DNA from: an uncultured Mycobacteriaceae bacterium
GTDB taxonomy: Bacteria > Actinomycetota > Actinomycetes > Mycobacteriales > Mycobacteriaceae
Reading direction: 5' to 3'
DNA: 32,462 bases
NCBI GenBank assembly: GCA_903927745.1
Contig: CAIYOH010000328.1
Coordinates: 1-32,462, forward strand
Both the position numbers and the translations under genes were made by a program. Below are positions 28,109 to 29,819 of the stretch, piece after piece. Positions within the stretch are counted from its first letter, which is position 1. Each line of letters begins with the position of its first letter. Under the pieces are notes generated by a model. The model saw nothing but the letters and a program-made list of their open reading frames with translations, made no database searches and was not told where the DNA came from.

Positions 28109-29005
28109 CTAATACGTCTCGGCGCAGCCGGCGTTTCCAGGGCACTCGATCTGCACCGTCGCGTGGCTCAGGCCGCGAGCCGACAGCACCGCGCGAGCAT
28201 CCTCCAACACGCGGGCCGAGTCCCCGGCGCTCGTCAGGTGCGCCGTGCACATGTCCTTGCCGGGCGAGAGCGTCCACACGTGCAGGTCGTGCACCTCGGT
28301 CACGCCGTGGACCGCGCCCAGGGCGGCGCGCAACTCGTCGACGTTGATGTGGGCCGGCGAGGCTTCGGAGAGGATGTGCAGCGCGTCGCGGGCCAGCGCG
28401 ATCGCACGCGGCAACACCCAGAGCGCCACGAGCACGGCGACCACCACGTCGGCGTAGGGCCAGCGGGTTGTGACGGTGACGATGCCGGCGATCAGCACGC
28501 CCAGGCTGCCGATACTGTCGGCGACCACCTCCATGTAGGCGCCCCGGACGGCCATACTGCCCGACGAATGCGAGCGCAGCAGCAGCGCGACCACCAGGTT
28601 GGCGGCCAGGCCGGCCAGCGCCACCACGATCATCGGCACGCCGGGTACCGCCTGGGCGTGCCGGAGTCGCTGGATCGCCTCCCGGAGAATGAACAGCGCG
28701 ACCGCGATCAGGAGGACGGCGTTGGCCACCGCGGTGAAGACCTCGGCGCGATGCCAGCCGTAGGTGCGTGCGGGCGACGCGCTGCCGCGCCGGGCCAGGG
28801 TCAGCGCGACAAGCCCCATGAACACGGCGACGACGTCGGTCAGCATGTGCCCGGCGTCGGCGAGCAGCGCGATCGAGTCGATGAGCAGTGCGGTCGTCAA
28901 CTCGACGACGAAGAAGGCCGCCAGGATCGCCGCGGCCGCGATCATGCTGCGGATCACCCGAGGCGACGCCGGCTCGGTCGGGGTGTGACTGTGACCGGCG
29001 CCCAT
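28109..29005 (-). CDS. Cation diffusion facilitator (CDF) metal exporter
   Basis: Predicted proton-coupled divalent-metal exporter of 298 residues, probably for zinc or a similar ion. It has a short His-containing N-terminus (GHSHT), six membrane segments, and a cytosolic domain with VHDLHVWTLSPGKDMCTAHL, the ZT_dimer signature. The TM2 metal site is D50 with H53xxxD57 (ADAGHMLTD). The TM5 site reads E159xxxD163 (MEVVADS), where zinc CDFs usually have HxxxD. The ATG is 7 nt downstream of TATATT, which lies within a perfect palindrome, pointing to a leaderless mRNA under tight repression. It is downstream of the M50 gene (40-bp gap) but evidently has its own promoter. I do not recall it here in M. 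tuberculosis. Confidence 0.93.
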   Translation of the reverse strand: MGAGHSHTPTEPASPRVIRSMIAAAAILAAFFVVELTTALLIDSIALLADAGHMLTDVVAVFMGLVALTLARRGSASPARTYGWHRAEVFTAVANAVLLIAVALFILREAIQRLRHAQAVPGVPMIVVALAGLAANLVVALLLRSHSSGSMAVRGAYMEVVADSIGSLGVLIAGIVTVTTRWPYADVVVAVLVALWVLPRAIALARDALHILSEASPAHINVDELRAALGAVHGVTEVHDLHVWTLSPGKDMCTAHLTSAGDSARVLEDARAVLSARGLSHATVQIECPGNAGCAETY

Positions 29006-29012
29006 GGCGAGA

Positions 29013-29038
29013 AATATATGCGGTTTATCGCATATATT
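29013..29038. promoter_or_regulatory. Perfect palindromic operator over the CDF promoter
   Basis: AATATATGCG-N6-CGCATATATT is a perfect inverted repeat with 10-bp arms. On the minus strand it contains TATATT (-10, ending 7 nt before the CDF ATG) and lies in the spacer after TTGCAA (-35, 18-nt spacing). The AT-rich arms resemble ArsR/SmtB-type metal-sensor operators. A repressor bound here would block the promoter. Confidence 0.75.
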
Positions 29039-29045
29039 GCAAGGC

Positions 29046-29819
29046 TCAGAGCCAGCGGCTCCAGAAGCGCGTCAGCGAATTGCCCCGCGCGACCAAAATG
29101 TTCGGGACGCCGGAGAAATCGAAGAACCACAACACCATCCCGTAAATCCACCCGCTGGCCGACAGGAGCAGGAACAGCAGGAAGAGAAAGCCGTACTGCT
29201 TGGCCGGCGCCACCGCCCGCTGCGTCTCGGGGCTCAGATGCGGTTCCAGCGCGTCGTAGCCGTCCAGGCCCGGGATCGGCAGCAGGTTCAACACGACGGC
29301 GGTCAGTTGCAGGAAGCCCAGGAACGCCACCCCGGACCACAGCACCGTGTGAGCGGGGTCGAAGAACACCCGTGTCGCAGTCAGCAGCAGCACCGCGAGC
29401 GCGAGGTTCATCGCCGGGCCCGCCAGGCTGACCAGGGTGCGGCGCCACGGCGTCATGAACCACGTCCGCAGGTACACCGCGGCACCCGGCAGGCCGATTC
29501 CGCCGAGCGCGACGATCACCAACGGAAACACCAGCGAGAGCCCTGGCTGGGTGTACCGGCGCGGATCCAGCGTCAGGTAGCCGCGGACCGCGGCGTCGTG
29601 GTCACCGAACCGCCATGCGGTCACCGCGTGCCCGAATTCGTGCAGGCACAGCGACACCAGCCAGCCGGCGATCACAAAGACGAACACCCCGGCATACGAC
29701 AGCGCCCGATCGCTCACCCCCGACTGCCAGGCCAACGCGCCGCCCGCCGCCGTCGCCGCCACCAGGCCCAGGAACACCGGGCTGGGCCGCATCGCGTCGC
29801 GTCGGGCCGGAACGTTCAC
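29046..29819 (-). CDS. M50-family membrane metalloprotease (Rv0359-like)
   Basis: Site-2-protease-type zinc peptidase embedded in the membrane, 257 residues. It has the HExxH motif in SLCLHEFGHAV (about 57-67) and the second metal-ligand motif NLLPIPGLDGYDAL (about 179-192), with several membrane helices around them. There is no PDZ domain. Substrate unknown. A TAACTT hexamer ends 6 nt before the GTG at 29819, which supports that start over the ATG at 29792 and suggests a leaderless mRNA. It starts 9 nt after the Rv0358-like gene. Confidence 0.92.
   Translation of the reverse strand: MNVPARRDAMRPSPVFLGLVAATAAGGALAWQSGVSDRALSYAGVFVFVIAGWLVSLCLHEFGHAVTAWRFGDHDAAVRGYLTLDPRRYTQPGLSLVFPLVIVALGGIGLPGAAVYLRTWFMTPWRRTLVSLAGPAMNLALAVLLLTATRVFFDPAHTVLWSGVAFLGFLQLTAVVLNLLPIPGLDGYDALEPHLSPETQRAVAPAKQYGFLFLLFLLLSASGWIYGMVLWFFDFSGVPNILVARGNSLTRFWSRWL

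Follow-up and report, generated by a model that had tools for sequence, protein, structure and literature searches.

In Mycobacterium smegmatis, SmtB binds at the cation diffusion facilitator (CDF) gene zitA (MSMEG_0755) and acts as its repressor (Goethe et al. 2020; PMC7174638). Indeed, in that study the gene was up about 80-fold in an smtB mutant, down about 34-fold with TPEN and up about 14-fold with zinc, its promoter was zinc-inducible in the wild type and constantly high without SmtB, and SmtB ChIP enriched the zitA promoter fragment; at the smtB-zur promoter, SmtB ChIP was positive only after zinc depletion with TPEN. The M. smegmatis genome was searched there with the M. tuberculosis SmtB site, none was found, and the SmtB motif of zitA was left for future work (PMC7174638). 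In the same species, zinc resistance is carried by zitA alone (PMC9374683). The smtB-zur operator of M. tuberculosis SmtB (Rv2358) is described, in the account of Canneva et al. (2005) cited in PMC13284343, as a 26-bp motif overlapping the promoter. Cyanobacterial SmtB, ZiaR, AztR and AzuR have 12-2-12 operators, e.g. AATACCTGAACA-GA-TGTTCAAGTATT (PMC8790569).

The window (the whole stretch of 32,462 nucleotides analysed here) is a Mycobacterium contig (dnaK-grpE-dnaJ-hspR, clpB ... purA) from a genome of 3.45 Mb in 357 contigs that is 93.4% complete. Between clpB and purA, it encodes on the minus strand (i) a zitA-type CDF protein of 298 amino acids (28109-29005) with Cation_efflux and ZT_dimer domains, and (ii) an Rv0359-type M50-family peptidase (29046-29819), the upstream neighbour, which ends 7 bp before the palindrome described below and lies outside the switch. 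The TM5 residues of this CDF protein are EVVAD, that is E-x3-D, as in almost all orthologues where the motif was found; the usual TM5 motif of zinc CDF proteins is H-x3-D. By synteny with MSMEG_0755/MAP3865c, the CDF gene is the counterpart of M. smegmatis zitA, and the tables of PMC7174638 pair MSMEG_0755 with Rv0359/MAP3865c.

Upstream of this gene, an exact 26-bp palindrome, assigned to neither strand, occupies positions 29013-29038 and reads AATATATGCG-GTTTAT-CGCATATATT, i.e. two perfect 10-bp arms (half-site AATATATGCG) around a 6-bp spacer. Its GC content (27%, compared with 69% overall) is the lowest of any 26-mer in the window. On the minus strand, a -35 element TTGCAA (29042-29037) and a -10 element TATATT (29018-29013) are separated by an 18-nt spacer; this is the sole promoter-like match in 28900-29200 (mean of 0.0 in shuffles). 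On that strand, the palindrome runs from where TTGCAA ends to where TATATT ends, and it contains the whole -10 element. The original prediction, which had called the palindrome flawless, the most AT-rich spot around and overlapping both TATATT and the spacer after TTGCAA, was thus accurate on all of these points. The ATG of zitA (29005) lies 7 nt beyond the -10 element, a distance consistent with a leaderless mRNA, which is predicted here.

Perfect palindromicity alone is not rare in the window, which holds four perfect 10-bp inverted repeats (0-4 per shuffle), although no shuffled window produced one with low-GC arms. The evidence is conservation, and it is conservation, not palindromicity, that rules out a chance palindrome. 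The pattern ATATGCG-N6-CGCATAT (at most one mismatch) was present in 222 of 298 Mycobacterium genomes, compared with about 14 genomes for the reversed pattern used as control, nearly always in one copy and usually directly before the same CDF gene, which adjoins the site at 29 of the best 30 loci. Extra copies of this strict pattern that were fetched from other genomes and did not precede zitA fell within or across coding frames and were taken as chance matches. When the search started from the protein, almost every Mycobacterium locus showed the box ahead of its CDF orthologue, and the box was seen there in Gordonia, Rhodococcus, Williamsia, Millisia and Jongsikchunia too. Where the strict pattern gave no match in a genome with a CDF orthologue, a degenerate box was often present. 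The frame of 54 distinct mycobacterial zitA promoters reads TTGC-N-AYATATGCR-N6-YGCATATATT-(6 or 7 nt)-ATGGG, where TTG of the -35 element is invariant and TTGC is kept in 96%. ATGC and GCAT never vary, and more variation is seen at the six central bases; this set was partly gathered by pattern, which inflates the conservation of the core, and the loci collected through the CDF protein and the pattern-negative loci agree with it. The invariance of ATGC and GCAT is telling because both sit in the spacer between -35 and -10, where a promoter as such requires no particular bases.

In the genome of the window, ATATGN10CATAT has a single exact copy. The degenerate pattern AYATGCR-N6-YGCATRT (at most one mismatch) has exactly two sites, namely the zitA promoter and the promoter of an smtB-zur operon on a different contig, and its reversed control none. 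The second site reads TTGACATGCG-TCATCA-CGCATGTGAC, with ACATGCG-TCATCA-CGCATGT standing before smtB. The original prediction had proposed an ArsR/SmtB-type operator read by a sensor acting in trans, the window encoding no such regulator, and had suggested searching for further copies and for an ArsR/SmtB gene preceded by one. Each of these ideas is borne out: no ArsR gene was found on the contig of the window, three PF01022 genes are encoded elsewhere in the genome, and the only other site is the promoter of smtB-zur. The box thus stands before the regulator's own gene, and the genome encodes an SmtB with the alpha5 ligands. Indeed, the SmtB motif D-x-H-x10-H-x2-E is kept in 37 of 37 genomes and lines up with identical residues in Synechococcus SmtB; these four alpha5 positions are zinc ligands in the SmtB family. 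The structure of a close SmtB homologue is available (PDB entry 8qkf); a literature search found no paper describing it.

With exact matching, the degenerate pattern was found in 133 of 149 Mycobacterium genomes (control, 6/149) and in 71 of 101 genomes of the family, covering 20 of 30 genera (control, 3/101), mostly in one or two copies per genome; at 47 of 52 sampled family sites, what comes next is either a CDF gene or an smtB gene with zur behind it. The smtB boxes read TTGACATGCR-N6-YGCATGT. They share the core ATGCR-N6-YGCAT with the zitA boxes and differ from them in the outer arms (AYATATGCR at zitA, TTGACATGCR at smtB). The genus-wide smtB box very probably corresponds to the M. tuberculosis Rv2358 operator; a slow-grower smtB box was not found as text in the literature search. 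In G078, the nearest to M. smegmatis among the genomes found, the zitA box is GACATATGCA-GACTTG-CGCATATATT and the smtB box is TTGACATGCG-AATCAG-CGCATGTATT, with the published MSMEG_4486 Zur box after it. G078 carries this Zur box letter for letter and the MSMEG_6069 Zur box with one mismatch, its identity with M. smegmatis being uncertain. As a side observation, zur comes immediately after smtB in several further genera of this family (L227-L245, L250-L253); the 2020 paper names Mycobacterium, Nocardia, Saccharothrix and C. diphtheriae, and no others, as carriers of the smtB-zur operon (PMC7174638).

Taken together, sequence conservation and the published M. smegmatis data make us highly confident that the palindrome is an SmtB operator in the promoter of zitA, the zinc exporter gene, and it is very probably the operator that the 2020 study sought without success. 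SmtB would contact exactly this 26-bp sequence directly. Repression and binding by SmtB and induction by zinc at the M. smegmatis counterpart (PMC7174638) agree with the operator type and with the probable inducer, zinc, named in the original prediction. Regulator, target and signal were already known; the operator box was not, as far as the literature search could show, and the zitA box sequence was not found there in any later paper. Under the proposed mechanism, an apo-SmtB dimer would sit on the box, over the spacer and the -10 element, when zinc is not in excess, and would sterically exclude RNA polymerase, because the box contains both of these promoter parts. Zinc at the alpha5 sites would loosen SmtB from the DNA and its release would allow the leaderless zitA mRNA to be made, while the same core at smtB-zur could provide autoregulation.

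Three other readings of the box were weighed. Another ArsR-family sensor (KmtR-, NmtR- or CmtR-like) could read it and make zitA responsive to nickel and cobalt or to cadmium, as similar palindromes are used by the family and the genome of the window has two further PF01022 genes. However, smtB is the only ArsR gene preceded by the box in this genome, the box precedes smtB-zur throughout the genus and the family, and the M. smegmatis counterpart is under the control of SmtB and zinc, with constantly high expression in the smtB mutant (PMC7174638), so that a sensor of this kind appears very unlikely. The box could also be a by-product of an AT-rich promoter, or an RNA hairpin, with no protein reader. 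Such an origin would fit the chance occurrence of perfect 10-bp inverted repeats in the window and the need of the promoter itself for TATATT, but the conserved core is symmetric and lies between the hexamers while the spacer bases vary, and at smtB-zur, where the promoter is different, this core is found again. Moreover, with a leaderless start the palindrome would not be transcribed; we consider this origin extremely unlikely.

Regulation of zitA by zinc-bound Zur through the box would have a precedent, since zitA exports zinc and Zur control of an exporter is known, Zur inducing zitB in Streptomyces coelicolor (PMC5472717). Yet the mycobacterial Zur consensus, GANAANNNTTNNC, differs from the palindrome, and a Zur box was rejected on that ground; in rapid growers the Zur box stands beside the smtB box and not inside it, and deletion of smtB derepresses zitA in M. 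smegmatis (PMC7174638). A role of the box as a Zur site is therefore given next to no credence.

The original prediction had treated absence of the palindrome from orthologous promoters, with the gene still metal-induced, as evidence against it; the palindrome is generally present there, and is missing in one clade (L128-L134). In this M. terrae-type clade, so named on the basis of L026 (Mycolicibacter senuensis) and of sequence similarity, the zitA promoters (L026, L128-L134) lack both the palindrome and TTGC and keep TATATT and its spacing to the ATG; smtB-zur is present and the smtB promoters keep the box (L152, L155-L157, L159, L162, L164). In Mycobacterium leprae, zitA (L049, 3001-3909) is frameshifted in the C-terminal domain and the operator is intact.

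A third box occurs in some rapid growers; it has a TATAAT-like -10 element at its centre and directly precedes the start codon of a gene for a P-type ATPase, which lies next to an additional copy of ctaD (L254, 1950-1969; L255, 1984-2003; L256, 1961-1980; L257, 1992-2011; L258, 1986-2005). Pfam E1-E2_ATPase was confirmed for the ATPases of L254 and L255, and this box is likely a third SmtB target, predicted to control a leaderless exporter. In addition, among the smtB loci compared (L149-L178, L182-L187), a Zur box, AATGAAAACGNTTTCCA, directly follows the smtB box in rapid growers and several M. terrae-type genomes, and was not seen next to it in slow growers or in the genome of the window; co-control of smtB-zur by SmtB and Zur may thus be lineage-specific. 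In genome G159 (L260, 1977-1996), ABC transporter genes on one side and a second Zur-family gene on the other flank a box, and a Zur-like box stands next to it. A previously unmapped, family-wide SmtB regulon seems probable, with a fixed two-gene core formed by the zitA-type CDF gene and smtB-zur, a leaderless P-type ATPase as a lineage-specific third target, and clades in which the circuit is rewired, among them the M. terrae type. If so, M. terrae-type zitA, having lost the operator, should be free of SmtB control.

The box supplies a candidate for the specific sequence that the 2020 study said must be identified. That only the core ATGCR-N6-YGCAT is shared between the two promoters could explain why searching with just the one M. 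tuberculosis site failed. Any mycobacterial genome could then be inspected for SmtB control of zinc export, which point mutations could put to the test, and the locus offers a compact, presumably zinc-inducible promoter with natural variants for reporter work.

Compared with known systems, the locus is closest to M. smegmatis zitA (PMC7174638), with which it has in common the syntenic CDF gene and, as described for that species, repression by SmtB, induction by zinc and SmtB at the promoter; it differs in that no motif was given there, whereas a specific box with family-wide conservation is proposed here. The M. tuberculosis smtB-zur operator, compared by its description as cited in PMC13284343, is alike in length, promoter overlap and regulator. 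Written in the 12-2-12 frame, the palindrome reads AATATATGCGAT-AA-ACCGCATATATT, an inverted repeat of about 26 bp with TG...CA half-sites and perfect 10-bp arms, which overlaps the core promoter (spacer and -10) of a metal-handling CDF gene. It thereby resembles the cyanobacterial 12-2-12 operators, which are also 26-bp inverted repeats over promoter elements and have the TG of the half-site at the same place in the frame, and it differs from them in carrying TGCG/CGCA where they carry TGAA/TTCA (PMC8790569).
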